Position numbers and translations under genes: made by a program. Positions 17,829-44,471 of a DNA stretch of 64,000 nt are shown in pieces (position 1 is the first letter of the stretch; each line of letters opens with the position of its first letter). The stretch comes from Nocardia carnea (GTDB lineage: Bacteria > Actinomycetota > Actinomycetes > Mycobacteriales > Mycobacteriaceae). The DNA is taken from contig NZ_JARWOV010000111.1 of the NCBI RefSeq assembly GCF_029868855.1, positions 51,167 to 115,166 on the forward strand, given 5' to 3'. The notes below the pieces were generated by a model. It searched no databases, was not told the DNA's origin, and worked only from the letters and a program-made list of their open reading frames with translations.

Positions 17829-17847
17829 CACAGTCCCAACTAGCAAA

Positions 17848-17862
17848 CGATAACCATTTTCA
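17848..17862. promoter_or_regulatory. Candidate Zur box in the NRPS/tailoring divergent promoter
   Basis: CGATAACCATTTTCA matches 13 of 15 positions of TGATAATCATTTTCA, the 7-1-7 Zur-type palindrome (consensus from general knowledge of actinobacterial Zur sites). It lies 20 bp upstream of the NRPS 1 ATG and about 110 bp upstream of the methyltransferase ATG. A minus-strand TTGAAA (-35-like) overlaps the box, and a plus-strand TACAAT (17870-17875, -10-like) is just beyond it. Binding here could repress both divergent operons. The GC-poor stretch stands out from its surroundings. Confidence 0.6.
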
Positions 17863-17973
17863 ATAGTGCTACAATCTACGACGTGCCGACGGCTTCGGTC
17901 AAGCGACCTCTTCGGTTCGGCCATACGAAATCCGTTGGCGGCGACCCGCTTCGGCAATGCACAGGAAGTAGGC

Positions 17974-18987
17974 ATGGCAGCTCACCAGCGACTCATGAAC
18001 ATGATGTTCGGAACGATCTGCTCCCAGGTTGTCGGCACCGCAGCCCGCCTCGGGCTCGCCGATCACCTCGGCGACGGCGAACTCGGCCACCCCGAACTGG
18101 CCGAGCGCACCGGTACCCATCCCGGAGCACTCGCCCGGCTACTCCGCGCCTTGGCAGCCTTGGAGATCGTCGTCGAAACCCGGCCGGGCACATTCCGGTT
18201 GGGTGAGGCAGGAATGCCACTGCGCACGGATCGGCCGGATTCGCAGGCGGCGGCAGTACTGCTGTTCACCGATCCCACCCTGCTGGATTCCTGGAAGCTG
18301 ACCGAGGAGGCGGTACGCACCGGGCAGCCGACCTTCGAAGGGCTCTACGGCACCGACTTCTTCAGCTTCCTCGCCACGAAACCCGAGCTGTCCGAGCGAT
18401 TCAACGCCACCATGCGGCAGGTCAGCCTGCCCATCGCACAGCTGATTCCGGTGAGTTACGACTTCACCCGCCACCACACCGTCATCGATATCGGCGGCGG
18501 CGACGGCACCCTGCTCTCGCAGATCCTGCGCGGGGCGCGCGCAGTACGCGGCGTGGTTTTCGATTCGCCGAGCGGAGCCGCCGAGGCCTCGGCGACCCTG
18601 TCCGCCGCCGGTGTCGCCGACCGCTGCCGTATCGAGGCCGGTGACTTCTTCTCCGCGGTACCCGAGGGCGGAGATATCTACCTGCTCAAAAACATCCTGC
18701 ACGACTGGGACGACGAGCGCTGCCGCACCATCCTGGAACAGTGCCACAAGGCGATGCCCGCCGACGGGCGCCTGCTGATCGTGGAGTCCGTACTGCCCGA
18801 TGTCGTCGACACCTCGGACCCGGCCCCCTACCTCACCGACATCAGCATGCTCGTCAACATGGGCGGCCAGGAACGCACCCGCACCGAGTACGAACACCTC
18901 TGTCGCCGTGCCGGGTTCACGGTCACCGCCGTGCATCCGACCGTTCTGCCCACGTCGTACTCACTGATCGAGGCAACACCGGTCTGA
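17974..18987 (+). CDS. SAM-dependent O-methyltransferase
   Basis: A 337-residue class I methyltransferase of the plant-type O-methyltransferase family (Methyltransf_2). It has an N-terminal winged-helix dimerisation region (about 1-100), SAM motif VIDIGGGDG (170-178) and the catalytic-region ILHDWDD with His243. The start at 17974 was preferred to an upstream in-frame start because AGGAAG (17963-17968) sits just upstream and the protein then begins like family members (MAAHQRLMNMM). It is first in the plus-strand tailoring operon, 13 bp before the P450. Likely role: methylate a hydroxyl of the aryl cap or of a hydroxylated intermediate. No methoxy group is needed for a basic pyochelin-like scaffold, so this hints at extra decoration. 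Confidence 0.85.
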   Translation: MAAHQRLMNMMFGTICSQVVGTAARLGLADHLGDGELGHPELAERTGTHPGALARLLRALAALEIVVETRPGTFRLGEAGMPLRTDRPDSQAAAVLLFTDPTLLDSWKLTEEAVRTGQPTFEGLYGTDFFSFLATKPELSERFNATMRQVSLPIAQLIPVSYDFTRHHTVIDIGGGDGTLLSQILRGARAVRGVVFDSPSGAAEASATLSAAGVADRCRIEAGDFFSAVPEGGDIYLLKNILHDWDDERCRTILEQCHKAMPADGRLLIVESVLPDVVDTSDPAPYLTDISMLVNMGGQERTRTEYEHLCRRAGFTVTAVHPTVLPTSYSLIEATPV

Positions 18988-19000
18988 ACGGACATCACCC

Positions 19001-20233
19001 ATGCTCGACAAGTCCCGCCCGATCGTGGTCGACCTCCTGGCCGGTGATTTCCACGAACGAGCCCACACCGTCTACGACGAGCTGCGCGCGCAGTCACCGG
19101 TCGTCTTCGCCGAACTGCCGGAACAGCCGGGCCGGGGATTCTGGATGATCACCGGATACGCGGCTGCCGTGGCCGCGCTGCACGACCACCGGCTGGCGAA
19201 CAATCCACGCGCGCTCCTGTCTCCGGACCAGCTCGCAGCCAGAGCCCGAGCCCGGATCCCGGAACCACCACACACCATGCTGCTGTCCGACCCGCCGGAA
19301 CACACCCGCCTCCGGCGAGCCGCGCAACAGGCATTCACCTCCAGATCGGTCACCGCCCTACGCCCCGCAGTGGTCCGGCATGCCGGACGGCTACTGGACG
19401 AGGCGGAGAAGGCGGCCCGCGACGGTGACGGCACCGTGGATTTGCTGCACAGCTATGCCTACCCGCTGTCGCTCACCGTCCTCGGCGAGATTCTCGGCTT
19501 CCCCGCGGCCTGGCATCCCGGCCTGCACGACCTCGCCGTACGAGCGGCGACCGCCTCCACTCCGCTGTCCGGCCCCGACCCCGCACTGCGCGAACTACTC
19601 GAGAACTACACCCGCGATCTCGTCCTCCTCAAACGAGACGACCCCGGCGACGATCTGGTCAGCAGGCTGGTACATCCGCATGCCGGTAAAGACACCCTCT
19701 CCGACGGCGAACTGACCTCCATGATCGGCCTGCTCGTGGCCGCGGGTTTCGAAACCTCGGCGAGCCTCATCGCCAGCGCGACCCTGTCACTGCTCGCCCA
19801 TCCCGCCCAGTGGGCCGCACTTCGCGACGATCCGGAGCTGGCAGGTCCCACCGTCGAGGAGGCCATGCGTTACTGGGGTCCGGTCGAATCCGCGACGATG
19901 CGCCTCGCGCTCGAACCGCTGGAGCTCGGCGGCCTGCGCATCGAACGTGGCGACCGGGTCCTGGTGTTCATCGCGGCCGCCAACCGCGACCCGGCCCACG
20001 TCACCGATCCCCACCGCTTCGATATCCACCGCGCACCCCGGCCCCACCTCGGGTTCAGCGGCGGTATCCACAACTGCATGGGTGCCGCACTCGCCCGCAC
20101 CGAGGTCGCCATCGCACTCACCACCCTCACCACACGCTGGCCGCAGCTGCGCCTCGCGGTTGCTCCGGCCGGTTTGCGCTGGCGCCCCGGTATGGGACTA
20201 CGCGGCCTGCGCCGCCTGCCGGTACGCCCCTGA
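19001..20233 (+). CDS. Cytochrome P450
   Basis: A complete 410-residue bacterial class I P450. The I-helix oxygen-activation segment is AAGFETS, the K-helix ExxR is EAMR, and the heme loop is FSGGIHNCMGAALARTE with ligand Cys359. It needs a ferredoxin and reductase from elsewhere in the genome; none is adjacent. The gene lies between the O-methyltransferase and the halogenase-like flavoenzyme in one orientation and probably one operon. Likely role: hydroxylation or oxidation of the metallophore, possibly creating the hydroxyl methylated by the neighbouring enzyme. No specific CYP family is assigned from sequence alone. Confidence 0.92.
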   Translation: MLDKSRPIVVDLLAGDFHERAHTVYDELRAQSPVVFAELPEQPGRGFWMITGYAAAVAALHDHRLANNPRALLSPDQLAARARARIPEPPHTMLLSDPPEHTRLRRAAQQAFTSRSVTALRPAVVRHAGRLLDEAEKAARDGDGTVDLLHSYAYPLSLTVLGEILGFPAAWHPGLHDLAVRAATASTPLSGPDPALRELLENYTRDLVLLKRDDPGDDLVSRLVHPHAGKDTLSDGELTSMIGLLVAAGFETSASLIASATLSLLAHPAQWAALRDDPELAGPTVEEAMRYWGPVESATMRLALEPLELGGLRIERGDRVLVFIAAANRDPAHVTDPHRFDIHRAPRPHLGFSGGIHNCMGAALARTEVAIALTTLTTRWPQLRLAVAPAGLRWRPGMGLRGLRRLPVRP

Positions 20234-20305
20234 TCCCCCACCTCCCGGACCGGGTACCGCTTTCGGTGGCGGGCGCCGAGTACACAACAGCACAAGGAGT
20301 TCGAC

Positions 20306-21895
20306 ATGTCATCCCCGACCGACGCCCAGTACGACGTCGCCATTCTGGGCGCCGGAATCGCCGGCAGCACCCTGGCCACCATCCTGGCCCGCCACAAACT
20401 GAAGGTCCTGCTCATCGACGCGGGCGTACATCCGCGCTTCGCCATCGGCGAGTCCACTGTTCCGCACGCGACCACCACAATGCGCGTCCTCGCCGAGCGC
20501 TACGATGTTCCCGAGTTCAACGCGCTGACCAACTTCGAGGACACCGCCGAGCAGGTGGCGAAGACCTGCGGGCAGAAACAGAACTTCGGGTTCGTCTACC
20601 ACGAGCAGGGCCGGCCCGCGGATCCGGGCAAAGCACATCAGGTCGTACTCGCCTCCGGATACCGCCGTACCGAAGCACACTGGTTTCGCCAGGACATCGA
20701 TTCGTACGTGTTCCACCTCGCTGTCCGCTACGGCGCGAAAATCCGGCAGAACATCCGAATCGACGATATCGAGGTCGATCCGGCCCGTGGGGCCCGGTTG
20801 CGTTCCACCTCCGGCGAGACGTTCGACGCCGAGTACTTGGTCGATGCCACCGGTTTCCGTTCTGTGCTGGCCGATCGGTTCGGGCTCCGCGAGAACCCCA
20901 CCCGGGCACGGACACACTCCCGCTCCTTGTTCACTCATATGATCGGTGTCCAGCCGTTCGACGATGTCGCACCGGTTCGTTACGACCCGCCGACCCGGTG
21001 GCACAACGGAACCCTGCACCACATCTTCGACGGCGGCTGGCTGTGGGTGATCCCGTTCGACAACAACGACAAGTCGATGAACCCGCTGTGCAGTGTGGGG
21101 CTCACCTTGACCGGTGACGCGGTCTTCGACGACCGCCCCGCACCGGAGAAAGAGTTCGGTGACTTCCTCGAGCGATTCCCGTCCGTAGCGAAACAATTCG
21201 AGAACGCCACGGCCGTCCGCCCGTGGGTGAGTACCGGGCGCTTGCAGTATTCCGCCGCCAACACTGTCGGCGACCGCTTCTGCCTGACCGCACAGTCCGC
21301 CGGGGCGATCGACGCACTGTTCTCCCGCGGGCTCGCGAACTCGTTCCAGACCGTGAACGCCTTGGCCTGGCGGATCATCGAAGCCGCGCGCAACGATGAT
21401 TGGTCGACCGAGAAGTTCGCCGGGCTCGACGCGGTCCAGCAGCGCATGTACGACGTGCACGACGATCTCGCCTACTCGTCGTATGTGAGTTTTCGCCACT
21501 ATGCCCTGTGGGACGCGATCTTCCGCGTGTGGCATACATACAGCTTCTACTCCGACGCCGCCTTGGAACACGCCTTGTCCAGGTATTTCGCCGGTCAGGA
21601 CGACCAGGTGTTCCGGACGCTGGAACGCGGCGATTCCGCGCTGCCCCAGGCCGTGCGGGGATTGTTGACCAGCGCGCGAGAGAAATGTGAAGCGGTCGAG
21701 CGCGGAGAGTTGACGCCCACGGATGCCGCGAGTGCGATCATCGACCGGATCAACAGGGAACGATTCTTTCCCGAATGTCTGCCGCACGGGAATCCCGAAT
21801 TCAAGTACATCGATATCTCCCGGGACAAGGCGATGGAGTTCATGCAGTGGACCCGCAGCGAGGCACCGCGGTGGATCACAGAGTCCTTTGCCTGA
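20306..21895 (+). CDS. Flavin-dependent halogenase-like monooxygenase
   Basis: A 529-residue FAD enzyme near the length of tryptophan/phenol halogenases. It shows the FAD-binding GAGIAG (15-20), GESTVPH (48-54), the halogenase hallmark GWxWxIP as GWLWVIP (244-250), and the segment QSAGAIDALFSRG corresponding to the usual DAAGFIDPLFSSG. K91 (GQKQNFGF) could be the catalytic lysine but needs an alignment. An AAGGAG ribosome site sits just upstream of the ATG. Halogenation of the salicyl ring or of another ring is plausible. A non-halogenating hydroxylase of the same fold is the alternative. A partner flavin reductase is not encoded nearby. Confidence 0.75.
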   Translation: MSSPTDAQYDVAILGAGIAGSTLATILARHKLKVLLIDAGVHPRFAIGESTVPHATTTMRVLAERYDVPEFNALTNFEDTAEQVAKTCGQKQNFGFVYHEQGRPADPGKAHQVVLASGYRRTEAHWFRQDIDSYVFHLAVRYGAKIRQNIRIDDIEVDPARGARLRSTSGETFDAEYLVDATGFRSVLADRFGLRENPTRARTHSRSLFTHMIGVQPFDDVAPVRYDPPTRWHNGTLHHIFDGGWLWVIPFDNNDKSMNPLCSVGLTLTGDAVFDDRPAPEKEFGDFLERFPSVAKQFENATAVRPWVSTGRLQYSAANTVGDRFCLTAQSAGAIDALFSRGLANSFQTVNALAWRIIEAARNDDWSTEKFAGLDAVQQRMYDVHDDLAYSSYVSFRHYALWDAIFRVWHTYSFYSDAALEHALSRYFAGQDDQVFRTLERGDSALPQAVRGLLTSAREKCEAVERGELTPTDAASAIIDRINRERFFPECLPHGNPEFKYIDISRDKAMEFMQWTRSEAPRWITESFA

Positions 21896-22002
21896 CCCTC
21901 CGCTGATATCCGAGGGCGACCGGCTCCCACGCGACCCGCAATAGCGACCGCGACCCGGTCGTCCATCGGACGGCAACTCCTGCGAACCCGATTGCGAGCA
22001 CG

Positions 22003-23367
22003 ATGAACCGGCCCACCACACTCGGCGTCGACGACTATGTACATACCGTGCACCCGCACAACACCGACCCATTGACCTTGGCAGCCGCCCTCGCGGCTTC
22101 CGGACAGCTCACCGACTATGTCGTGTACGAACAGCCCGGCCGCTGGTATGTGGCCGGGAACCCGGTCGGCGCGGTGACCGTCGGCCGCGACCGGCTGCAC
22201 AGCACTCTCGGCGGCGACCGCACCGAATCCTGGCGTGGCAATCCCTGGCCACAGCTCCACGCCGCCCTCGACCGGGCACCGGTACACCGCTGGCGGGCCT
22301 ACGGCTGGGCCTGCTTCGAACTCTATCGCCCGGACACCGCGGCACCGGACGATATCCTCGCCCACTTCATGGTGCCCGGCGTGGAACTGGAGATCACCGA
22401 AACCGCGGTGCACATCCGTAGCTACGGCGACCCGTTCGAACTCGAACTACCGGATACTCCCGCCCCCGTGCCGGCGCCCAGACCGGTACCCGTGGACACG
22501 GTGGATACTGCCTACCTGCTGCGCGTGCAGGATGCGCTGGACCGGATCCGCCACGGTGAATTCGACAAGGTCATCATGTCCCGCCGAGTGGATGTGCCGT
22601 TCGCGGTGGACATGCCCGCCACCTACGCCGCTGTCCGCCGGATGAACACTCCGGCGCGTTCGTTCCTCCTGGACCTCGGCGGCTGGCAAGCCGCCGGAGT
22701 GAGCCCGGAAACCGTTCTGGAGGCCGACGGCGGCGGGCTGGCTACCACCCAGCCGCTGGCCGGTACCCGGGCCCGCACCGGCGACGCCGAACGGGACCGG
22801 GAGCTGCGGGATGATCTGCTCTCCGATCCGAAAGAGATCTACGAGCACGCCACCTCCGTACGCCTGGCCTACACCGAACTCGACAGTGTCGGCAGCCCGA
22901 CGCGGGTCAGCGAATTCCTCACCGTGAAAGAGCGTGGCAGCGTGCAACATCTCGCCTCGCGTGTGGAGACCCTGCTGCCCGACGGCCGGACCTCATGGGA
23001 CGCCCTGGCCGCTGTGTATCCCGCCATCACGGCTTCCGGCATTCCCAAAGCACCCGCCTGCGCCGCGATCGACGACCTGGAACCCGGCACCCGCGGGCTC
23101 TACAGCGGCGCCGTCGTACGCGCCGACAGCACCGGGTTCCTCGATGCCGCACTCGTCTTGCGCGCCGTCTATCAACGCGCGGGCCGAAGCTGGCTGCGCG
23201 CCGGAGCCGGTGTCGTCACCGGCTCGACACCCGCCCGCGAATACGAGGAGACCTGCGAGAAACTGGCCTGTATCGCCCCTTATCTCGTACCGGTGCGGCC
23301 CGGAAGCCGAGGACCGGCCGCGAGTAACCCGCCGATTCCGGCGCCGAGCAAGGATGCCCCGCGATGA
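22003..23367 (+). CDS. Salicylate synthase (MbtI/Irp9 family)
   Basis: A 454-residue chorismate-utilising enzyme converting chorismate to salicylate via isochorismate, the aryl starter for NRPS 1. Family signatures are present in order: QPLAGTRAR, the PAITASGIPKAPA segment characteristic of salicylate synthases, RGLYSGAV, and LRAGAGVV...REYEETCEK near the C-terminus. Length agrees with MbtI and Irp9 (about 430-450). It ends the plus-strand tailoring operon and is followed by a strong hairpin. Its presence removes the need for a separate isochorismate synthase plus lyase pair. It strongly supports a salicyl cap. Confidence 0.93.
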   Translation: MNRPTTLGVDDYVHTVHPHNTDPLTLAAALAASGQLTDYVVYEQPGRWYVAGNPVGAVTVGRDRLHSTLGGDRTESWRGNPWPQLHAALDRAPVHRWRAYGWACFELYRPDTAAPDDILAHFMVPGVELEITETAVHIRSYGDPFELELPDTPAPVPAPRPVPVDTVDTAYLLRVQDALDRIRHGEFDKVIMSRRVDVPFAVDMPATYAAVRRMNTPARSFLLDLGGWQAAGVSPETVLEADGGGLATTQPLAGTRARTGDAERDRELRDDLLSDPKEIYEHATSVRLAYTELDSVGSPTRVSEFLTVKERGSVQHLASRVETLLPDGRTSWDALAAVYPAITASGIPKAPACAAIDDLEPGTRGLYSGAVVRADSTGFLDAALVLRAVYQRAGRSWLRAGAGVVTGSTPAREYEETCEKLACIAPYLVPVRPGSRGPAASNPPIPAPSKDAPR

Positions 23368-23511
23368 CCTCTTCCACAATCGTTGTCGGAACTCGTTTGG
23401 TCACTGCCCCAACTGGAGCCGCCCGGATCCGACCGCCGAACTACTCACCCGCATAGCGAAAACGATGCCGGACCGATCAGCCCAATAGACCGCTCGGCGG
23501 CGCCCGCCACG

Positions 23512-23553
23512 CCAGTGCCCTCGTCGCCGATTATCCGGTGACGAGGGCACTGG
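23512..23553. terminator. Bidirectional hairpin between salicylate synthase and the ABC operon
   Basis: A perfect 14-bp inverted repeat, CCAGTGCCCTCGTC (23512-23525) against GACGAGGGCACTGG (23540-23553), with a 14-base loop. It sits between the convergent 3' ends of the salicylate synthase gene and the ABC transporter gene. There is no clear U-tract on either strand, as is common in actinobacteria. Best read as a shared intrinsic-type terminator. Confidence 0.75.
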
Positions 23554-23565
23554 GTATTCCGCACG

Positions 23566-25311
23566 CTAGGCCGAGGCGGTCACCCGCCAGTGCCGCGCCC
23601 GCGTCTGTGCCTCCCACATCGCGCTGTAGCGCCCCTCCTGGGCGAGCAGTTCGTCGTGGGTGCCACGCTCGCAGACCACGCCGTCTTCCAGCACCAGGAT
23701 CTGGTCCGCGGCCACCACGGTGGAGAGCCGATGCGCGATCACGATGACAGTCTTCTCCGCGACCAGCGCATCGATGGCCTCCTGGACATAGACCTCGCTT
23801 TCGGTGTCCAGTGCCGCGGTCGGTTCGTCCAGCAGGACGATCGGCGCGTTCTTCAAGATCGCGCGGGCGATCGAAATGCGCTGGCGTTCACCGCCGGACA
23901 ACGCACCACCGATCTCACCGACCCGGGTGTCGTATCCGTGCGGAAGCCGTTCGACGAAGGTGTGTACGTTGGCCGCCCTGGCCGCCGCCTCGATTTCTTC
24001 CTGGGTGGCCTCGGGTGCCGCCATCGCGATATTCGCGCGGATCGTATCGTCGAACAGGTACACATCCTGGAAGACCACCGCGATATTGCGGTAGATCTCC
24101 ACCGGATCGAGAGTACGCAGGTCCATCCCGCCGATCAGCACACTGCCGCTGTCCGGGTCCGCGTACCGGGTCAGCAGCCTGGTCACCGTCGTCTTGCCCG
24201 ATCCCGACGGGCCCACCAGGGCCGTGAGCGATCGGGCGGGAGCGGTGAAGGAGACTCCACGCAAGACCCGGCTGCCGTCGGAGTATCCGAAGTGCACGTC
24301 GTCGAAAGTGATGTCGTAGGCGCTGATTCGGGCCTCGGGCTCGCTCACGTTCAGCGCGGGAGCATCCAGCACCTCACCGACCCTTTCCAGCGCCGAGTCG
24401 GTGATCTCGAATATCGAGGAGAGATTGGCCATGGTCGACAACGGTTCGGCGAAACGCACGGCCGCGGCCACCACGGCGATCAGCAACGCCGCCGACATGT
24501 CCAGGTCGAGCACCAGCGCGGCACCGAAGGCGACCATCGCCACCAGGCACAGCTGGACGACACTGGACGCCAGCAGTCCCGGCCAGGTGAGCCGCTTCTG
24601 CATGCCCGACATGGCTTCGTTCTGCTCTTCGAGGGTTTCGACCAGGCGCTGCGACGAGCGGCCGATCTGCCCGGTCGCGCGCAGTACCGGCAACCCCTGC
24701 ACGTATTCGACCACCCGGCTCGCCGCCGCGGCATCGGCCGCGTCGGCCCGGCGCGCCCCCACTCCGGTGATCTGCTGGATACGCCGGATGAACAGCACCG
24801 CGAACGGGATCGATACCGCGAGAACCAGTCCCAGGCGCCAGTCCACGACGAGGATGACCGCCCCGATGACCGCCGGAACCGTCACCATCTGGATGAACAA
24901 CAGCGCCATCCCGGACGAACTCATCGTCGCGTTTGCGACATTGCTGCCCATCACCGTGGTGAGATCTCCCGCGGCCCGGCGCTCGAGATCGGCCTGCGGC
25001 ATGGTCCGCAGCTTGTCGCCCAGCCGCAGCCGGGTAGCGGCGAGCACATCGGCCCACCGGCCGAATTCGAATCGGAGCTGCCCGTAGTGGAATGCCGCCT
25101 GGACCACCCAGCAGGCCACCAGTACGCCGAACCAGGTCCACACCACGGTGGTGTCGATATCCGGTTGGCTCAGCTCGTACAGAATCGGGATCAGCGTGGC
25201 GTACGCGGCTGCCTGCAGGACAGAACCGAGAAAGGCGCACCACAGGGTGCGACGGAATTCGCCGCGGTAGTCGCCGGCGGCGAGCAGCATGAGCCCCAGG
25301 ATTCGCCTCAT
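23566..25311 (-). CDS. ABC transporter, fused permease-ATPase (IrtB/YbtQ-like)
   Basis: A 581-residue half-transporter with N-terminal membrane segments (about 1-310) and a C-terminal nucleotide-binding domain: Walker A GPSGSGKTT, Q-loop VVFQDVYLF, signature LSGGERQR, Walker B IVLLDEPTAALD, and switch His in IAHRLST. I chose the ATG at 25311 because it overlaps the stop of the partner gene (ATGA). Relatives IrtB and YbtQ import siderophore complexes as heterodimers. Close homologues can also export, so direction is not decidable from sequence. Pairing with the preceding gene and the candidate Zur sites upstream points to metallophore traffic. Confidence 0.88.
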   Translation of the reverse strand: MRRILGLMLLAAGDYRGEFRRTLWCAFLGSVLQAAAYATLIPILYELSQPDIDTTVVWTWFGVLVACWVVQAAFHYGQLRFEFGRWADVLAATRLRLGDKLRTMPQADLERRAAGDLTTVMGSNVANATMSSSGMALLFIQMVTVPAVIGAVILVVDWRLGLVLAVSIPFAVLFIRRIQQITGVGARRADAADAAAASRVVEYVQGLPVLRATGQIGRSSQRLVETLEEQNEAMSGMQKRLTWPGLLASSVVQLCLVAMVAFGAALVLDLDMSAALLIAVVAAAVRFAEPLSTMANLSSIFEITDSALERVGEVLDAPALNVSEPEARISAYDITFDDVHFGYSDGSRVLRGVSFTAPARSLTALVGPSGSGKTTVTRLLTRYADPDSGSVLIGGMDLRTLDPVEIYRNIAVVFQDVYLFDDTIRANIAMAAPEATQEEIEAAARAANVHTFVERLPHGYDTRVGEIGGALSGGERQRISIARAILKNAPIVLLDEPTAALDTESEVYVQEAIDALVAEKTVIVIAHRLSTVVAADQILVLEDGVVCERGTHDELLAQEGRYSAMWEAQTRARHWRVTASA

Positions 25312-27158
25312 CGGGTCGTGGCCTCCTTCTTCTTGCCGCTGCCGAGACCCCACCCGCGAGCGCGCTGGTGATGTTCCCACAGCAGGGCGTAGCGGCCGCC
25401 GGACGCGACCAGTTCGGTATGGGTACCGGTTTCGGTGACCCGCCCGAATTCGAGCACGACGATCTGGTCGGCGTCGACGATCGTGGACAGGCGGTGCGCC
25501 ACCACGAGGACGGTCCGGCCGCGGGTGAGCTCGGCGATCGCGTCCTGGATCGCCGCTTCGTTCTCCGGGTCGGCGAACGAGGTCGCCTCGTCGAGGATCA
25601 CGATCGGCGCATCCGCGAGCAGTGCCCGGGCAATGGTGATCCGCTGTCGCTGACCGCCGGACAATCGAGCACCGCGCTCACCGACCGGTGTGTCGTAACC
25701 CTGGGGTAGTTCCGAGACGATGAAATCGTGGGCTCGGGCCGCCCGCGCCGCTGCTTCGACCTCGGCGTCGGTGGCCGTGGGGCGGGCGAGCCGGATATTC
25801 TCTTTCACGGTGTCGGAGAGCAGGAACGGATCCTGGAACACCATCGCCAGGTGCCGGAGCAGATCCTCGGAACCGATCCGGCGGACGTCCACCCCGCCGA
25901 CCAGTACTTCTCCGGAATCCACATCCCAGAACCGGGGGATCAGGCGCGCGATCGTCGATTTACCCGAGCCGGACGGCCCGACCAGTGCGCACACCGTGCC
26001 GCTCGGAATTGTCAGGTCCACACCATCCAGTGCGGCACGGTCCGCGCCTCCGTAACCGAACCGCACATCCCGGAACACGATCGACCCGTCGGCCGGAGAC
26101 TCCGGGTTCTCCGGCTCGCGCAGCGGTTCGATATCGAGCACCTGGACGATACGTGCGGCACCGGCCTTGGAGTCGTTGATCAGATTGGACAGGTTCATCA
26201 GCGGCACCACCGATTCCACCGGAAGGGTGCCGATGAGGATCGCGGCCACCAGTTGCGCCGGTGACATCGACCCGCCGGCCGTCAGCCAGATACCCACGGC
26301 GGTCACGATCAGGATGGTGGGTAACGGTGCCACCGTCAGGTTGGCGAAGATCATCGCGCTGCGATTGTTGTTCTGCCAGGCAGTGGTCGCGATATTGAAC
26401 TGCCGGACCCGGTCCACGAAGCGCCGGAACGACACCGTGCCGTCGTCGAAGGTCCGCACGACCGGCATACCCTGGACGAACTCCACTGTCGCCGCGTTGA
26501 TGGCCTCGTTGGCTTCGTCGTAGCGACGCCGGGTTTCGACGTAGTCCCGCAGGGTCAGCTGCATTCCGACGAACACCACCGGCAGGAACAACGCGACCGC
26601 CAGGAGAAGGCGCCAATCCACGAACCCCAGGGCCACGAGCGCCGCGATCGGCTGGGCCACCGTGAAACCGGCCAGTGGTACGGCATCGGCCACCGCCATG
26701 TGCAAGCCGCGCACATCGTCCTGGACGACCTTCTTCACAGCCCCCGAACCCAGTCGCTGTGCCTCGCCGAGCGGGACCCGGGCCAGATGCGTGGCCAGAT
26801 CGCTGCGCAGCCGTTGTTCGAGATCGAAGGACGCCAGATGTGAAAGCAGGAAAGACCATGCGCGCATGGCGAATCGGATGAGGAACCCGGCCGCGGCCAG
26901 TACCAGGAACGCCACCACCGTGCCGGTTTCGGTGTCGGCGGCGAACAGTTCTCCGAGGGTGAGCGCCAGGCCCACGAAACCGGCCACTCCGGCCGCGCCG
27001 CCGAGCGCACCGATCACCATGGCGGCACCGAGCCGCCCGCGGACCGGCTCGGTCACCCGGAACAGGGCATTGCCGGGCGTCACCCCGGCTTCGGCCGCGG
27101 CCACCCGGGGTTCCTGCCCCACTTCGTCTACCTGGAGCGATATCCCGGTACCACCCAT
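25308..27158 (-). CDS. ABC transporter, fused permease-ATPase (IrtA/YbtP-like)
   Basis: A 616-residue half-transporter: about 60 cytosolic residues, six predicted membrane segments, then an ATPase with GPSGSGKST, LSGGQRQR, IVILDEATSFAD and VAHRLST. It lacks the N-terminal siderophore-interaction (FAD) domain of mycobacterial IrtA, so it resembles YbtP more in architecture. The ATG at 27158 was preferred to the GTG one codon earlier because AGGAG (27168-27164) gives better spacing. It forms a two-gene operon with the downstream half-transporter through a 4-base overlap. Candidate Zur sites lie 110-130 bp upstream. Proposed role: partner subunit in uptake or efflux of the metallophore. Confidence 0.87.
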   Translation of the reverse strand: MGGTGISLQVDEVGQEPRVAAAEAGVTPGNALFRVTEPVRGRLGAAMVIGALGGAAGVAGFVGLALTLGELFAADTETGTVVAFLVLAAAGFLIRFAMRAWSFLLSHLASFDLEQRLRSDLATHLARVPLGEAQRLGSGAVKKVVQDDVRGLHMAVADAVPLAGFTVAQPIAALVALGFVDWRLLLAVALFLPVVFVGMQLTLRDYVETRRRYDEANEAINAATVEFVQGMPVVRTFDDGTVSFRRFVDRVRQFNIATTAWQNNNRSAMIFANLTVAPLPTILIVTAVGIWLTAGGSMSPAQLVAAILIGTLPVESVVPLMNLSNLINDSKAGAARIVQVLDIEPLREPENPESPADGSIVFRDVRFGYGGADRAALDGVDLTIPSGTVCALVGPSGSGKSTIARLIPRFWDVDSGEVLVGGVDVRRIGSEDLLRHLAMVFQDPFLLSDTVKENIRLARPTATDAEVEAAARAARAHDFIVSELPQGYDTPVGERGARLSGGQRQRITIARALLADAPIVILDEATSFADPENEAAIQDAIAELTRGRTVLVVAHRLSTIVDADQIVVLEFGRVTETGTHTELVASGGRYALLWEHHQRARGWGLGSGKKKEATTR

Positions 27159-27267
27159 CACGGCTCCTGTCCGTCACTTACCCGAAGCTCCCGCCACCCG
27201 CCGACGGGGCGGCCCCGGTACAACGCTCGGGATCTGCCAGGTCAATGGCGACAGCAAAAACTACTAT

Positions 27268-27288
27268 TAAAAACGATTGTCATTATCG
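27268..27288. promoter_or_regulatory. Candidate overlapping Zur boxes upstream of the ABC pair
   Basis: Two overlapping 15-mers: TAAAAACGATTGTCA (27268-27282, 12 of 15 to TGAAAATGATTTTCA) and, on the minus strand, CGATAATGACAATCG (27288-27274, 11 of 15 to TGATAATGATTATCA). They form an unusually AT-rich island about 110-130 bp upstream of the IrtA-like start. The same sequence class occurs at three other promoters in the cluster, which is the main argument that it is functional. Confidence 0.5.
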
Positions 27289-27708
27289 GATGAGCCGGAG
27301 GCTAACACAACACCCGCACCGATGCGAGCGATCCGGACCGACACCCAACCGGCTATCGCCCGCGCTGGACCACCACCGCCGAATCGCGAACCACCGGGCA
27401 GGTTTCGACACCGCCGCGACTCGGCGAAGAGGGCGGATGAAGCCCGGCCGCCGCGGTCGACGCCGACCACTCGGAAACTCTCCCGGACAGGCAAACCGAC
27501 CAGGAAAGCACCCGTGAACGCCCACCCGGCCCTCGACCCCCTGCAGCCGCGGCAACCCTTCATAATTAACGAACGCGTATTTCTACTAGCATAAGCACAC
27601 TCCACATGACATGTCGATACGGTTCGTCCGAACCGCGAAAGACAGTGCACGCTCCCACCCGTCCCGAGTCGACGAGCCCATGCCACCAAGCCACGAACAG
27701 CGATTCGT
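27289..27708. other. Regulator/ABC intergenic region, rest
   Basis: About 420 bases with no convincing gene. Short open frames here have poor coding character. An AT-rich island around 27560-27600 (CATAATTAACGAACG and a following TTTCTACTAGCATAA) could hold the promoter of the Zur-like gene, but no clear -35/-10 pair is decisive. Confidence 0.4.
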
Positions 27709-27723
27709 TGAAAACAGTTTTCA
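27709..27723. promoter_or_regulatory. Perfect 7-1-7 Zur/Fur-type palindrome before the regulator gene
   Basis: TGAAAACAGTTTTCA is a perfect inverted repeat (TGAAAAC, one base, GTTTTCA) with the geometry of Zur boxes (TGAAAAT-N-ATTTTCA). It ends 19 bp before the ATG of the Zur-like gene, suggesting autorepression. Its position also argues that the longer open frame beginning at 27611 is not the true gene start. It is the most symmetrical of the four cluster sites. Confidence 0.7.
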
Positions 27724-27742
27724 TTGGTGCTCAACTGTGCCC

Positions 27743-28159
27743 ATGATCGGGGAACATGTCGCAGCCCCTGGAATGCGCCGCTGGACACGACAGCGTGAGT
27801 TGATCATGTCCGCACTCGACGCACAGGGAGGGTTCACCACGGTGCAGGAGTTACATACGCGGCTGCGTCTGGAGGGGCACCGCATCGGCATTTCCACCGT
27901 GTACCGGACACTCGCGGAACTGGACCGAGCACAGCACCTGGACGTCGTCCGCCTGGAAACCGGCGAACGGCGATACCAGCTGCGCCGATCCTCGACGCAC
28001 CGGCACCATCTGATCTGCCGAGCATGCGGGGACAGCACCGTGTTGGATGCCACTGTCGTCGAAGAATGGATCGGCGAACTCCCTCGGATCACCGGGTTCA
28101 CCGATATCGCGCACACCCTCGAACTCGACGGCGTGTGCGTTCGGTGCCGCATCACCTGA
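27743..28159 (+). CDS. zur: Fur-family metal regulator, Zur-like
   Basis: A 138-residue Fur-family repressor. It has a winged helix with recognition region GISTVYRTLAEL (49-60), the metal-site cluster THRHHLICRAC (H86, H88, H89) and two structural-zinc CxxC pairs (C92/C95 and C132/C135). The C-terminal pattern ...FTDIAHTLELDGVCVRC resembles mycobacterial Zur (FurB) more than FurA. I chose the ATG at 27743 (a GTG two codons earlier is possible) so the palindrome lies outside the gene. It is probably a cluster-located Zur, likely a paralog of a housekeeping copy, controlling the four boxed promoters. The symbol is assigned by family resemblance. Zinc rather than iron specificity is inferred. 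Confidence 0.8.
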   Translation: MIGEHVAAPGMRRWTRQRELIMSALDAQGGFTTVQELHTRLRLEGHRIGISTVYRTLAELDRAQHLDVVRLETGERRYQLRRSSTHRHHLICRACGDSTVLDATVVEEWIGELPRITGFTDIAHTLELDGVCVRCRIT

Positions 28160-28388
28160 CCCGTGCCACTGCCGGACCTGCACCACCTACGCGCTCGAAT
28201 TCTCGGCCACGGGCCGGACAGTCGCGCGGCCCAGGCCCGTGACCGCACGACGCCGACCTCACACGACCGATGCAGGTGCCGACGTGGTGCGGCGATCCGT
28301 TCTCAACCGGACAGCGCCGAGATCCCGTATGGACAACCGCCCGCGACGAAAACACACGTGGATGACGCTCAGCCCCTGAAAAAGATCG

Positions 28389-29670
28389 TTACTCGCGCCG
28401 CGTGACGGATCTTGTCGTCACAGGAATCAGGGTCAGCGCGAGAATCGTCGGCAGGCTCAGGGCGAGCGCGAGACCGGTATGTCCCCCGGCCACGAGGCCG
28501 AGGCCGCCGAGCACCGATCCCGCGAACACTCCCAGGCTCATACCGGCCGCATTCAGGCTGAACGCGGTCGCGGACCGGTCGCCGCTGCGGCGGGCGATCG
28601 ACGTGGTCACCTGTGCTGCCACCACAGCGTGGCCGAACCCCATCAGGGCGGTCGCGGCCAGCGCGGGCAGCAGTGCGGTGGTGTGGAAAACTCCGAGCAC
28701 CGCGAGCAGCGCACCGAGTAATCCGGCCGCGAGCACCCTGCCGGGCCGCCGGCCGATCACCGAATCGGGATCGCGAACCCAACGGCCGGTCAGATAGTTC
28801 CCGAGGAAGAACGCGACGCCGCTCAGCGTCCACACCAGGGTGAATGCCGAGGCCGTGAGCTCGAACCGGTCGTCGTAGTACACCGCGAGGAACGCCAGGT
28901 ATCCCATGAACGAGGTCGTGCGTAGTCCCGCGACGGCGATGAGCGCGAGCAGGTCCGGCTGCGCCCGCAGTGCGCGAAACGATGCGAGGTAGCCGAGCGA
29001 AGCCGCAGGTGCCGGCCGAGCGTTTCCGTGCGCCCCGGGTGCGCAGGAACCCCACCGCGATGAGCACACTCACCGCCGCGGTGGTCCACAGCGCACCCTG
29101 CCAGCCGTGCCACGACCCCATCGCGCCGATGACCGGCCCGGCGCAGACCGCGGCCAGCGATTGGATCGCGGTGACCATGGTCGCCGCCCGGCCGATGTTC
29201 CCGGAGCCGGAGAACCGCGCGGTGGCCAACGTCAGCAGGGCCGGGGTGAGCAGCGCGGTGGCGATACCGATGCCGAGGCAGAAGACGGTGAGCGCGGCGA
29301 AGGTACCGGTGGTGGCCAGTACGCATGCCACGGCGAGCAGGATCAGTGCCGCGACGGCGACGTACTGCTTCGACCATCGGGCCAGCAACGGCGCCACCGC
29401 GATTCCCGCCACCAGCGCGGCCAGGCCGCCCAGCCCGCGCAGGAACCCGATACCCGACTCCGGGGCGCGAGCGGTGGCCGCGATCGGCACCAGGAACGTC
29501 GAATAGATCGTGAAGGGGAACAGGCCGATGATCGCGGCTGTCAGCACGAGCCACAGCGCGCGGACCATCCGGGAATCGGAAATCGGGCGCTCATCGGGCG
29601 TTTCGGGTTCGGGTGCCCGCGAGAGGTTCGCCGCATCGGCGGCGGGAGTGTTCATCCGACCGTCGATCAT
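28389..29670 (-). pseudogene. MFS transporter interrupted by a frameshift
   Basis: A major facilitator gene split over two frames. The first half (29670 to about 29030) encodes six membrane segments, ending RTRGARKRSAG. The second half (about 29040 to 28389) continues in another frame from GYLASFRALRAQPDLLALIA through membrane segments to TTRSVTRRE. The joined protein would be about 425 residues, normal for a 12-helix MFS protein. The break lies within about 29010-29040 and looks like a single-base indel. The ATG at 29670 overlaps the binding-protein stop (ATGA), so it belongs to the uptake operon, perhaps as metallophore exporter. It could be a real mutation or an assembly error. The contig shows poor quality elsewhere. 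Confidence 0.8.
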
Positions 29671-30677
29671 CCGGCCGCCACATGGTCACGCAGATACGCG
29701 GCGAACTTCTCCAGCCCGTCGATATTACGTGGGCTGGAGATGGCTTCGTTGTAGTCGAGCACGAAGAACTTGTTACCGACGACCGCCGGCAGCGACGCCG
29801 TGGCGGGATTCCTCTTCAGGAAATCGATCTTCTCCTGTGCCGGGGCGTCTTGGTATTCCAGGATGATGATGACCTCCGGCGCGGATTCCACGACCGCCTC
29901 CCAGCTCACCTCGGTCCAGCGTGCGTCGACATCGGCGAAAACGTTCTCCCCGCCGGCGAACCCGATGATATCGGTCGGCGGCACCTGACTCGCTGCGGTG
30001 AAGGGTTTGTCGGTGCCGGAGTCGTAGAGGAATACCTTGACCGGTTTTCCTGCCGGGACCTGCTGCTGAACCGCGGTGACGCGTTTGCGGTAATCGGCGA
30101 TCAGGTCGGCCGCGCGATCCTCGACGCCGAAAATCTGTCCCAGCCGCTCGAGGTCGGTGTAGAGACCTTCGAAGGGTGTGTGCCGCTCGGGGAAACCCGG
30201 GTAGTTGAAACAGGATTCGGCGTGCATGAAGCTCTGGATACCGAGGGTGTCGAGAATTTCGGGGGTGATCCCGCGGGAATCGGAGAACCCGGAGTTCCAC
30301 CCGGCGACGACGAAATCGGCTTTCGCGTCGACCACGAGTTCCCGGTTGAGCAGATCGTCGCTGAGGAACTCGACCTTCTCGTAGTCGGCCGCCCAGGGCG
30401 ATTCGCTCACCGGCGGGTTCGCGGGCGGCAGCACGTATCCGTGCACATGGTCGGCCAGGCCGAGCGAGAACATCTTGTCGGCGCTGCCCCCTTCGTAGAC
30501 GACCGCACGTTGCGGCACGGTGTACTCGACGGCCTCGCCGCAACGCTGCACCGTCGTGCGGCGCCCGGCATCGCCGGCGCCATCGACCTGCGCACCGCAC
30601 GCCGACAGCAAGAATGCGCCGGCGACAAAGAGAATCGCACTTCTGCACCGGGGCAAGCCGGTCTTGTTCGTCTTCAT
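29667..30677 (-). CDS. Metallophore-binding lipoprotein (FecB/FepB-like, Peripla_BP_2)
   Basis: A 336-residue cell-surface solute-binding lipoprotein. It has a lysine-containing signal peptide with lipobox LLSAC (lipid-modified cysteine near residue 27), followed by a class III binding-protein fold (ADFVVAGWNSGF; AAYLRDHVAAG at the end). It captures the metal-metallophore complex for the adjacent permease and ATPase. Its ATG overlaps the ATPase stop by four bases and its stop overlaps the MFS start. Ligand identity is inferred from context only. The family takes siderophores, cobalamin and heme, so a xenosiderophore is possible. Confidence 0.88.
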   Translation of the reverse strand: MKTNKTGLPRCRSAILFVAGAFLLSACGAQVDGAGDAGRRTTVQRCGEAVEYTVPQRAVVYEGGSADKMFSLGLADHVHGYVLPPANPPVSESPWAADYEKVEFLSDDLLNRELVVDAKADFVVAGWNSGFSDSRGITPEILDTLGIQSFMHAESCFNYPGFPERHTPFEGLYTDLERLGQIFGVEDRAADLIADYRKRVTAVQQQVPAGKPVKVFLYDSGTDKPFTAASQVPPTDIIGFAGGENVFADVDARWTEVSWEAVVESAPEVIIILEYQDAPAQEKIDFLKRNPATASLPAVVGNKFFVLDYNEAISSPRNIDGLEKFAAYLRDHVAAG

Positions 30678-31492
30678 CGTGTCGGCTCTTTCGTGAGTGT
30701 GTCCGTCATGGCTACGGGCTCGTTTCCGCCCGGGAGCGTGTAGAGGATCTGCGGCGCGCCGGTCAGCGGGTGCGCGACCACGGCGATATCGACACCGAAC
30801 ACCTCGGCGATCCGCTCCGCGGTCAACACCTCCGGAGGAGGACCTACCGCCACCAGCCGGCCACCGGCGAGGACCCCGATCCGGTCACAGGCCGCTGCGG
30901 CGAGATTCAGATCGTGCAGTACGACCAGCACGGTCGGCGCGGCGGTCCGTAACAATCCGAGCAATTCGATCTGGTGGCGCAGGTCGAGGTGATTCGTCGG
31001 CTCGTCCAGAATAAGGATCCGGGGCTGCTGGACGAGGGCCCGCGCGACGAGCACGCGCTGCCGTTCACCACCCGAGAGGCCGAGTATGCCGCGGTGCGCC
31101 AGATGCGCGATATCCATCTGCGCCATCGCCTCGCGGCACAGTTCGCGTTCGGCCGCGGTCAGCGGCTGGTTGCCGTATTTGAACGGCGCCCGGCCCAGTG
31201 CGACGACTTCGGCGACGGTGAAGTCGAACTCGGTGCCGCTTTCCTGAGTGAGCGCGGCGACCCGCTGCGCCGACTCTCGTCGCGACAGGCCCGCGAGGTC
31301 CTGCTCACCGATGCGGATGATGCCACCGCTGGGCGCGAGAGCGCGGTAGAGACAACGCAATATCGTGGACTTCCCGGATCCGTTGGGCCCGATGAGACCG
31401 ACGACTTCGCCCGGCGCGGCCTCGAGGTCCACACCCGCGACAATTTCGCGGCCCTCGATCTCCACCGCGAGATCCGCTATCCGCACCTGCAC
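30674..31492 (-). CDS. ABC transporter ATPase (FecE/FepC-like)
   Basis: A 272-residue ATPase of the iron-siderophore/B12 class. Walker A GPNGSGKST, signature LSGGERQRV, Walker B ILILDEPTNHLD and switch His in VLHDLNLAAA are all intact. The start is a GTG that shares one base with the permease TAG stop (TAGTG), and its end overlaps the binding-protein ATG. It powers import through the FecCD-type permease. With the separate IrtAB-like pair, the cluster carries two ABC systems. This one is unambiguously an importer type. Confidence 0.92.
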   Translation of the reverse strand: MQVRIADLAVEIEGREIVAGVDLEAAPGEVVGLIGPNGSGKSTILRCLYRALAPSGGIIRIGEQDLAGLSRRESAQRVAALTQESGTEFDFTVAEVVALGRAPFKYGNQPLTAAERELCREAMAQMDIAHLAHRGILGLSGGERQRVLVARALVQQPRILILDEPTNHLDLRHQIELLGLLRTAAPTVLVVLHDLNLAAAACDRIGVLAGGRLVAVGPPPEVLTAERIAEVFGVDIAVVAHPLTGAPQILYTLPGGNEPVAMTDTLTKEPTR

Positions 31493-32613
31493 TATGCGCC
31501 TCCGAAAACGTAACCCCTGCGGCGCATCAGGACGATGAACATCGGGACCCCGATCAGCGCGGTCAACACCCCGATCGGAAGTTCACGCGGAGCGGCGACG
31601 GTGCGTGCCAGCAGATCCACCCACACCGTCAGGATCGCCCCCGCGAACGGCGCGATCAGCAGCAACCGAGCGTGTCCGGCCCCGACGATCATGCGGGTGA
31701 TATGCGGAACGACGAGACCGACGAAACCGATCGTGCCGCTCACGGCGACCATCGCGCCGGTCATCACCGCGGTCGTCGCGAACAGGCCGCGACGCGCCCC
31801 GGACGTATCCACGCCGAGGCTCGCGGCGGTCTCGTCGCCGAGAGACATGATGTCCAGTACGCGGCTGTACCGGAACAGCAGCACGCCACCCACCACCGAG
31901 ATCGCCGCCACCACCGGCAAAGAACCCCAGGTCGCGGCACCGAACGAGCCCATCGTCCAGAACAACACGGTGCTGGTCGCCTCACTGCCCGGTGCGAAGT
32001 AGATCAGCATGCTCATCACAGCCTGGAATCCGAACGCCAGCGCCACCCCGGTCAACACCAGCCGCAGCGGCGTCACCCCCATACGCCGGTAGGCCACCGC
32101 GTACGCCAGCGCGGTCGCGCCCAGCGCACCGAGGAAGGCACCGACCGAGACGGCGTAGATCCCCAGACCCGCCAGCACACCGAACAGCGAAACCGACACC
32201 GCTCCAACAGACGCGCCGGAAGAGACACCGAGGATATACGGGTCCGCCAGGGAATTGCGGACCAGCGCCTGGATCACCGCACCGGCGACACTCAACCCGG
32301 CCCCGACGACAGCGGCGAGCAACACGCGCGGCGTGCGGATCTGCCAGACGATCTGATACCGGGTCGCCTCGTCGGCGGCCACAGTCCCGTTGGTCACCGA
32401 GGCCCAGAGGAAGCGGGCAGTCTCGGCGGGGTGGATCGACGCGGATCCGAGCCCGATCGCGACCAGGATCGACACCGCCAGCACAACCGTGAGCAGCACG
32501 ACGAGTGCCGCGGTGCCGGTTCGAGTCCGCCACCGTCGCACGCGATCCGGAACGGGCTCTTCTGTGCCCCGAGGGACCACCGCGCGATTCGCCGCCAACT
32601 CACACACTTCCAC
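31492..32613 (-). CDS. FecCD-family metallophore permease
   Basis: A 373-residue polytopic permease of the BtuC/FecCD family with about ten membrane segments and the typical GAVIQALVRNSLADPYILGVSSGA segment. The usual two-permease arrangement (FecC plus FecD) is replaced by a single gene, implying a homodimer. The start is a GTG at 32613 with a weak ribosome site. A Zur-like double palindrome lies immediately upstream, so repression would be direct. First gene of the operon permease, ATPase, binding protein, MFS. Confidence 0.9.
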   Translation of the reverse strand: MEVCELAANRAVVPRGTEEPVPDRVRRWRTRTGTAALVVLLTVVLAVSILVAIGLGSASIHPAETARFLWASVTNGTVAADEATRYQIVWQIRTPRVLLAAVVGAGLSVAGAVIQALVRNSLADPYILGVSSGASVGAVSVSLFGVLAGLGIYAVSVGAFLGALGATALAYAVAYRRMGVTPLRLVLTGVALAFGFQAVMSMLIYFAPGSEATSTVLFWTMGSFGAATWGSLPVVAAISVVGGVLLFRYSRVLDIMSLGDETAASLGVDTSGARRGLFATTAVMTGAMVAVSGTIGFVGLVVPHITRMIVGAGHARLLLIAPFAGAILTVWVDLLARTVAAPRELPIGVLTALIGVPMFIVLMRRRGYVFGGA

Positions 32614-32617
32614 TCAG

Positions 32618-32642
32618 TTATCAGTTTTGATAATCATTACCA
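32618..32642. promoter_or_regulatory. Overlapping palindromes (candidate Zur box) at the uptake operon promoter
   Basis: On the minus strand TGGTAATGATTATCA (32642-32628) is a 7-1-7 repeat with one mismatch, close to the Zur consensus. It overlaps a second inverted repeat, TTATCAGTTTTGATAA (32618-32633, 6-bp arms). The pair sits 5-29 bp upstream of the permease GTG. Two overlapping operators could allow stacked repressor dimers, as reported for some Zur/Fur promoters. Confidence 0.65.
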
Positions 32643-44069: not shown

Positions 44070-44471
44070 GTGACACCAGATGCCGCGCGCGAATTACTGC
44101 TGTTCCACAGTGGTGCACATCCCGATGTTCATGATCCTCGCTGGGAGCAAGGGTTTCTCGGCATGCTCCGCCCGTACCGCGGTTTGCGTGATGAGAATTT
44201 CCATTCCGTGATGGCTTGCCTGCGCGCCCTCACAGACGATTTACAAGGCGACGCCCTCGACCGCCGAGTGATCGGAGCCCTCTGGGGAATCTGTCACTTC
44301 GGCCGGACCTGGGGAACATGTCCAGGTGGCATGCTGCGCAGCAACAACCTCATTACCGACGAAGATGTCTCCCGGCTGGAGAGCTGGGTCGAACAGATCT
44401 CCTACTCCACCTTCTGCGTCCTCGACGGTGCGATCGGTGAGGCATTCCACACCTACGACCGAGGCATCTGA
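44070..44471 (+). CDS. Hypothetical 133-residue protein
   Basis: A GTG-started frame (MTPDAARELLLFHSG) giving a soluble helical protein with conserved-looking Trp and Cys positions (ALWGICHFGRTWGTCPGGML). It has good coding character and lies between mobile-element debris. No family recognised. The segment GRTWGTCPGGMLRSNNLIT is the most distinctive part. It may be cargo of a lost element. Confidence 0.55.
   Translation: MTPDAARELLLFHSGAHPDVHDPRWEQGFLGMLRPYRGLRDENFHSVMACLRALTDDLQGDALDRRVIGALWGICHFGRTWGTCPGGMLRSNNLITDEDVSRLESWVEQISYSTFCVLDGAIGEAFHTYDRGI

Follow-up and report, generated by a model that had tools for sequence, protein, structure and literature searches.

Transvalencin A and the uniformides are the described compounds closest to the predicted product of the locus analysed here. 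In the available passages of a review, uniformide A is given as C23H26O6N4S3Cl2Zn with four five-membered rings and is said to resemble transvalencin A, with an O-Zn-O bond; both compounds contain zinc and were isolated as zinc complexes, antibiotic activity is ascribed to transvalencin A and cytotoxicity to the uniformides, and a transvalencin-like cluster is placed in N. uniformis (PMC11364655). Passages of a second source list coelibactin, EDDS of Amycolatopsis and pseudopaline as metallophores under the control of Zur (PMC6103462). In Nocardia mangyaensis NH1, a genome paper tabulates cluster 6.1 as a (Ser-Cys-Cys)+(Cys) nonribosomal peptide (NRP) metallophore with ABC and MFS transporter genes, to which antiSMASH assigns Zn and Ni sites (PMC10920908, table entry). 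Our subject is a 64,000-nucleotide stretch of Nocardia carnea DNA (contig NZ_JARWOV010000111.1, positions 51,167 to 115,166; hereafter the window), which carries an NRP synthetase (NRPS) cluster with predicted Zur boxes at its promoters. We consider it probable that this is a cluster of the transvalencin/uniformide type, repressed by zinc-loaded Zur and turned on when zinc runs short; its product would likely bind zinc and then be re-imported. The predicted zinc control is well supported by the score of the boxes against a Nocardia matrix, by their conservation at orthologous promoters and by the lack of good iron boxes.

Predicted Zur boxes occupy five intergenic regions, four in the window and one just to its left. 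The first box lies in the divergent region between the genes for the synthetase NRPS1 and an O-methyltransferase (OMT) (17848–17862, CGATAACCATTTTCA, 33.1 bits), the second 107 bp upstream of an ABC transporter gene pair (27268–27282, TAAAAACGATTGTCA, 30.7 bits) and the fourth 15 bp upstream of a FecCD operon (32628–32642, TGATAATCATTACCA, 28.1 bits). The third is a perfect 7-1-7 palindrome that ends 19 bp before the ATG of a Zur paralogue gene (27709–27723, TGAAAACAGTTTTCA). The boxes were read directly at 17848, 27268, 27709 and 32628, as the preliminary description of this DNA had claimed for four intergenic 7-1-7 sites, including a perfect one before a Zur-like gene. Two further boxes, at contig positions 49059 and 49189 and about 2 kb left of the window, sit 189 and 59 bp, respectively, upstream of a methyltransferase gene at contig position 49248. 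Searching the window with TGAWAANNNTTWTCA at up to 2 mismatches gave 5 matches against 0.45 expected, and 5 or more were seen in 0 of 100 shuffles; four of the five are the boxes above, and the fifth is at 44189. Across the genome, TGAAAANNNTTTTCA at up to 2 mismatches matched 68 times per strand, compared with 12 for a reversed control. The 7-1-7 layout of the boxes is also that of the S. coelicolor Zur motif tGaNNatSatNNtCa and of the actinobacterial motif taaTGaNAANNNTTNtCANta, as printed in passages of PMC5472717. A sigma-70 scan of the NRPS1 region returned a single weak leftward promoter, which was not used.

The bit scores come from a 21-bp matrix built from 12 distinct sites at Nocardia CobW promoters. 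Pattern search and gene calling had identified two canonical zinc-target candidates in the genome, a CobW-type GTPase gene (contig C31) and a divergent znuABC-like locus (contig C77), and a box was present at all 30 Nocardia CobW promoters read (30 genomes, of 112 with a CobW match at E 1e-60). In the genome itself, the CobW site scores highest (40.6 bits), followed by the box at contig position 49189 (37.7 bits) and those at 17848 and 27268. Then come contig position 49059 (28.8 bits), the box at 32628, the znuABC site (26.5 bits) and a methyltransferase gene on C31 (26.1 bits), and below them a site overlapping contig position 49059 (21.2 bits), the promoter of an ArsR-family/zur gene pair (16.0 bits) and the box at 27709 (15.9 bits). 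The scan covered 249,793 positions, partly in stretches chosen for pattern matches, with the 64-kb window alone as unselected background; in the window, all sites of at least 13 bits are within, or overlap, a box. In 3 Mb of first-order random sequence there were zero matches of at least 21 bits and one of at least 15.9 bits. All four window sites therefore beat random sequence, the outcome on which the preliminary description had staked its reading, and they do so least clearly at the perfect palindrome 27709, the weakest of the four, which has one equal in the 3 Mb. A matrix rebuilt without this genome and its five nearest kin gave identical scores for the four boxes. By this measure the predicted sites at the cluster promoters, at 15.9–37.7 bits, match the boxes of canonical zinc-target promoters in Nocardia.

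Two of the sites outside the cluster deserve mention in their own right. The methyltransferase gene on C31 is UbiE-like, and its 26-bit box (L022 8801–8815, contig C31:33800) makes it a likely further target of zinc starvation. The 16-bit site directly upstream of the ArsR-family/canonical zur pair (L025 946–960, contig C54) is possibly an autoregulatory or an ArsR-family site.

We examined the conservation of the cluster and its boxes among 150 Nocardia genomes, 19 of which carry the marker methyltransferase at 85% identity or more; the matches in genomes G126 (49%) and G050 (40–46%) were left out of the 19. The methyltransferase promoter has a box at most 62 bp from the start in 18 of these genomes and, in the nineteenth (G084), a 24.7-bit site 528 bp upstream. 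The NRPS1 promoter bears a box of 27–36 bits in all 14 genomes examined, common to the OMT gene in 13 of them (the OMT gene was not found there in G093), and the promoter of the ABC pair bears a site of 13–36 bits, likewise in 14 of 14; in the other five of the 19 (G001, G019, G037, G137 and G146) the contig ends first. The FecCD orthologue, at 91% identity or more, is confined to 4 of the 20 genomes searched and is boxed in all four, about 15 to 194 bp away. In an alignment of 13 NRPS1/OMT regions, mean identity is 0.94 in the box versus 0.81 elsewhere, and the box ranks fourth among 127 15-mers. Next to the cluster in N. harenae stands a boxed CobW zinc-chaperone gene (L041 16072–20543), and a salicylate synthase gene is boxed both there and in locus L043.

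A scan with the YbtU-like reductase of the cluster yielded 11 Nocardia loci and one locus each in Actinokineospora, Bradyrhizobium and Enterobacter. The relatives in Bradyrhizobium cajani and an Enterobacter strain are 52% identical (L046, L047). At three loci a Na+/H+-exchanger-like gene adjoining the cluster has a Zur-like box 65–229 bp upstream (L147 11559–11573; L036 15009–15023; L020 14060–14074), which suggests that a cation antiporter is co-regulated with the cluster there.

The left and central genes of the cluster indicate what the product would be. NRPS1 (7929–17831, minus strand; Pfam, motif and code extraction) consists of an N-terminal aryl carrier protein and three condensation-adenylation (A)-peptidyl carrier protein (PCP) modules; Pfam counts 3 A, 3 condensation and 4 carrier domains, and the A-domain codes extracted are DLYSMGLIHK, DLFNLSLIWK and DLFNLSLIWK. 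NRPS2 (2428–7932, minus strand; Pfam and code extraction) has a TubC docking domain, a condensation domain, an A domain with an inserted methyltransferase and the code DLWNLSLIWK, a PCP and a thioesterase. We take three of the four codes to be Cys-like (DLFNLSLIWK twice and DLWNLSLIWK) and one to be Ser/Thr-like. The condensation domains of both synthetases would be of the cyclisation type; a pattern search recovered part of the cyclisation motifs and none in NRPS2. On this reading of the codes, the aryl carrier protein and four modules spread over NRPS1 and NRPS2 fit the transvalencin/uniformide type: three Cys-like codes among four modules would account for the three sulphur atoms and four five-membered rings of uniformide A.

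Tailoring genes flank the synthetases. To the left, on the minus strand, lie genes for a saccharopine-dehydrogenase-like NAD(P) protein (1295–2431; Pfam), whose position in the cluster is conserved, a YbtU/Irp3-like thiazolinyl imine reductase (135–1298; Pfam PF21390 and PF01408; best solved match 4gmg, YbtU/Irp3, E 6e-50) and a cytochrome P450 (gene call, Pfam PF00067). The P450 gene begins at 1–138 and leaves the window leftwards (C111:50012–51304), and the cluster reaches on beyond it to a Na+/H+-exchanger-like gene and the methyltransferase gene at contig position 49248. To the right, on the plus strand, come the OMT gene (17974–18987; Pfam PF00891), a second cytochrome P450 gene (19001–20233; Pfam PF00067), a gene for a halogenase dependent on flavin adenine dinucleotide (FAD) (20306–21895) and a salicylate synthase gene (22003–23367; NCBIfam TIGR03494, 407 bits vs a cut-off of 325). 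The halogenase is nearest in solved structures to the tetracycline 7-halogenase and PltM (7xgb, E 3e-138; 6bzt, E 4e-91), as a chlorinated ring A would require; PltM is presumably a phenol halogenase.

Part of this gene set was read in the uniformide producer itself. In N. uniformis NBRC 13702 the left half of the cluster lies on one contig (L042, genome G137), with the methyltransferase at 85% and the reductase at 78% identity, and the halogenase, at 78%, is on another; from the left half and the halogenase read, we conclude that an orthologous cluster is present there. The halogenase accompanies the cluster here and in a producer of chlorinated compounds. Four other clusters (L083, L141, L143 and L148) lack the gene at the position examined, which predicts unchlorinated, transvalencin-like products in those four. 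The predicted product of the cluster is a small molecule rich in sulphur and able to bind zinc, likely a zinc ligand of the transvalencin/uniformide type and not a new class. The proposal that this is a candidate new zincophore system therefore probably does not hold, given the gene content and the N. uniformis cluster, which make the known type the probable one.

The activities reported for these compounds raise the question of whom the product serves. It could be a zinc-complex antibiotic that starves or poisons competitors, with Zur timing its release and zinc uptake by the producer secondary, as would suit an antibiotic transvalencin A and cytotoxic uniformides (PMC11364655, passages). The conserved, boxed YbtPQ-like genes and the boxed FecCD genes of four genomes point instead to re-uptake, and we regard a mainly outward role of this kind as rather doubtful.

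These transport genes form, together with the regulator, the right-hand part of the cluster, in which the YbtPQ-like pair is followed by the Zur paralogue, then by an MFS gene and FecBCD. The pair encodes a YbtQ-like ABC half-transporter (23566–25290, minus strand; best solved matches 6p6i_B and 8vsi_B, both YbtQ, E 3e-127 and 6e-127) and a YbtP-like one (25308–27161, minus strand; best solved match 6p6i_A, E 2e-138). Beyond the paralogue gene (27743–28159, plus strand; PF01475, 82.5 bits) lie, all on the minus strand, genes for an MFS transporter and possible exporter (28369–29670; Pfam PF07690), a FecB-type binding protein (29667–30677; Pfam PF01497), a FecE-type ATPase (30674–31492; Pfam PF00005) and a FecCD-type permease (31492–32613; Pfam PF01032). 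The gene content bears out the earlier claim that the cluster has a regulator, importer and tailoring enzymes of its own.

The regulator is not what it first seemed. Its best solved matches are S. coelicolor Zur (ScZur; 3mwm, 7vo0) and M. tuberculosis FurB (2o03), and it is 39% identical to the canonical Zur of the genome, encoded on C54 beside an ArsR-family gene. An assignment to Fur was considered and rejected: no NCBIfam name came above cut-off and the best partial hits were Fur models, and the solved-structure matches settled the case for Zur. Arg stands at the positions of ScZur C79 and H85 in all 9 Nocardia paralogue sequences aligned and in two shorter relatives, one of them from Streptomyces; one paralogue locus, L056, escaped the motif expression, and its aligned relatives carry the same residues. 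The canonical Nocardia Zur loci read keep the Cys and HHHH in 23 of 23 cases. Roles as metal-site residues are assumed for ScZur D65, H85, H86 and H122. The alignments show that the paralogue keeps the structural Cys4 site, the D-site residues and H36, and that a complete M-site including C79 is absent. In the passages available, H36, C79/H87 (M-site) and H84/E105 (D-site) are given roles in ScZur, C79 and H87 having been mutated together as the M-site (PMC11077047); a further source describes this site as crucial if Zur is to bind its targets (PMC8000910). The cluster regulator, taken as a Zur in the preliminary description, thus remains Zur-like and is predicted not to be a plain Zur: two M-site ligands are lost, a feature new here. 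Because of this loss, the canonical Zur of C54 is the likelier main repressor, and the paralogue would serve to retune the switch.

The distribution of the paralogue bears on its role. Matches to it occur in 149 of the 150 genomes; leaving aside the genomes with the paralogue and two fragmentary assemblies, they stand at the level of canonical Zur. With a threshold of 70% identity it is found in 7 genomes, all among the 19 cluster carriers (7/19 vs 0/131; Fisher P 1.7e-7, ignoring kinship), and in the other 12 cluster genomes no paralogue was found and the boxes are present all the same. Of 8 paralogue copies, 7 have a box whose end is 19–20 bp upstream of the start, a double-domain frame in G055 being counted from its first domain; in the exception, G037, the paralogue gene comes after the boxed methyltransferase gene. 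Such double-domain frames hold two paralogue domains head to tail in one open frame (L087 9041–9670; P0001, 227 aa; the frame in G055 is 245 aa). N. carnea NBRC 14403 has a second paralogue, 70% identical, between the methyltransferase gene and a divergent MFS gene (L082 8979–9383), with one box between it and the MFS gene.

From these data one could argue that the paralogue is a sensor of nickel or another metal, or a zinc-blind repressor, and the real controller wherever it is present. The two Arg substitutions, the restriction to cluster-bearing genomes and the Ni site predicted for the similar N. mangyaensis cluster (PMC10920908, table entry) would fit such a role. The retained Cys4 site, D-site residues and H36 argue against it, and the 12 boxed clusters in which no paralogue was found indicate that the paralogue is not required, so that we think it unlikely. 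It is conceivable, and we offer it tentatively, that two Zurs that respond at different set points control the cluster, or that zinc acts together with a second cue. The paralogue would then be a retuned second zinc sensor that has lost the M-site and kept its other zinc sites and its own operator; the circuit would travel with the cluster, and the zinc-complex antibiotics of the transvalencin/uniformide type would be the output of the zinc-starvation response of Nocardia.

Iron control was assessed with a 19-bp consensus taken as that of the IdeR iron box. No site with 3 or fewer mismatches occurs in the 64-kb window, and the best matches at the four cluster promoter regions have 6, 8, 9 and 10 mismatches, of which the levels 8, 9 and 10 are ordinary for shuffles. 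As positive controls, siderophore loci of the same genome show IdeR matches with 1–4 mismatches, so the scan detects iron boxes where the genome has them. One such locus, about 27 kb left of the cluster, encodes an IrtA-like transporter, a second salicylate synthase and an AMP ligase, with IdeR matches of 3–4 mismatches; the salicylate-AMP ligase and second synthase genes with their IdeR-type boxes lie at L048 6452–10376 (contig C111:18452–22376). A ligase on contig C112 has an IdeR match with 1 mismatch. Control of the cluster by IdeR was therefore set aside, no good iron box being present at its promoters, though there is a weak site at 17911. The earlier prediction of zinc-type rather than iron-type control, and the absence of IdeR boxes on which it was partly based, hold up in these scans.

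Several observations weigh against the predicted zinc control. The box at 27709 reaches just 15.9 bits, some ABC promoters elsewhere have sites of just 13–17 bits, and the matrix scan found no box in the gaps preceding the halogenase and salicylate synthase genes. In the stretches read of a related Actinokineospora cluster (L045, L187 and L188), every score against the Nocardia matrix stays below 9 bits, and every match to the IdeR consensus has more than 5 mismatches; zinc control is therefore claimed for Nocardia alone. The table entry for cluster 6.1 gives a Ni site besides Zn (PMC10920908), and passages of another paper describe Pseudomonas mupirochelin, a related compound, as binding iron and zinc and as repressed more by iron than by zinc (PMC10080011). 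The 6-mismatch IdeR match at 17911, in the NRPS1/OMT region, was reached in just 5 of 300 shuffles and may mark a weak iron input there. A genome search in which 99 of 142 candidates were scored found no salicylate-AMP ligase inside the cluster. Its two strongest candidates (C111:20158 and C112:19421), both below the curated cut-off of the family, sit at IdeR-boxed loci, so iron may enter the control of the cluster by this route. In N. carnea 917240412 (L037), the counterparts of the ligase and second salicylate synthase genes directly adjoin the zinc-boxed cluster, the ligase gene with a 3-mismatch iron box upstream, and a single pathway may thus respond to both iron and zinc.

The view that this is an iron siderophore cluster, with iron as main cue and cargo and the Zur boxes as a secondary zinc input, draws on these ligases, on the 17911 site, on mupirochelin and on a salicylate synthase and YbtPQ/YbtU-like parts that are common to iron siderophores, but it is improbable given the shuffle-like IdeR scores of the other three regions, the conserved Zur boxes that stand at the cluster promoters instead, and the separate iron-boxed locus with its own IrtA-like transporter and second salicylate synthase.

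We thus favour zinc control and propose the following scheme. Canonical Zur with zinc would bind the boxes and block the cluster promoters. At zinc shortage, NRPS1 and NRPS2 would assemble a chain that bears an aryl cap and four azol(id)ine rings, of which one would be O-type and three S-type; the YbtU-like enzyme would reduce one ring, and further tailoring would fall to the methyltransferases and P450s, joined in some strains by the halogenase. The MFS protein would export it, and the YbtPQ-like pair would import the zinc complex, as would FecBCD in the N. carnea-like clade, with the boxed paralogue adjusting the switch. If this is correct, the presence of zinc in transvalencin A and uniformide A would be accounted for by a conserved Zur switch, their physiological role would be that of zincophores, and zinc limitation is suggested as a simple eliciting condition in the 19 of 150 Nocardia genomes with the marker gene. 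An embedded Zur with an altered regulatory site would provide a natural experiment on the zinc sites that a Zur requires, and the zinc-boxed assembly line set against iron-boxed ligase genes allows cross-talk between the metals to be tested directly.

Among described systems, the cluster is most like those of transvalencin A and the uniformides in its four predicted azol(id)ine rings (one O-type, the others S-type), its aryl cap, its reductase and its methyltransferases; the likeness is drawn from review descriptions, which in the passages available carry nothing on zinc regulation (PMC11364655). By title, abstract opening and passages, we found no tie of transvalencin or the uniformides to Zur among the matches listed, a set that excludes subscription papers such as Engelbrecht 2021 and Hara 2022. 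N. mangyaensis cluster 6.1 shares its predicted monomers with the cluster here, as far as its table entry goes, and the passages on it do not connect it with transvalencin, with canonical Zur targets or with any Zur paralogue (PMC10920908).

Yersiniabactin resembles the present system in its YbtU-like reductase, YbtPQ-like transporter pair and salicylate synthase. The cluster differs from it in having four azoline modules, in the lack of a polyketide domain in Pfam scans of both synthetases, and in having Zur rather than iron boxes. Coelibactin differs in that its cluster has an AMP-ligase of its own. Its P450 is CYP105N1 (entries 3tyw and 4fxb). No P450 of that type was found here: the right-hand P450 matches CYP105N1 at E 1e-52 versus 5e-72 for its best match, and CYP105N1 is not among the best 60 solved matches of the left-hand one. 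Passages on coelibactin-like clusters elsewhere state that these may lack such a P450 (PMC3430247). The Zur-controlled coelibactin cluster (S. coelicolor SCO7676–7692) is nonetheless like this one in combining an NRPS metallophore, an ABC pair, metal transport genes and a P450, and, unlike here, the figure legend describing it names no Zur gene in the cluster (PMC3430247, PMC5472717, passages). [S,S]-EDDS of Amycolatopsis and, judging by title, the kupyaphores of M. tuberculosis are further actinobacterial zinc-linked metallophores. Both are of different chemistry and are not salicyl-azoline NRPS products. Coelibactin is thus not the sole well-known parallel, as had been supposed, since Zur control outside Streptomyces is in print for EDDS and pseudopaline, and an antiSMASH Zn site for N. 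mangyaensis. The new element in the present cluster is the altered Zur that it carries.

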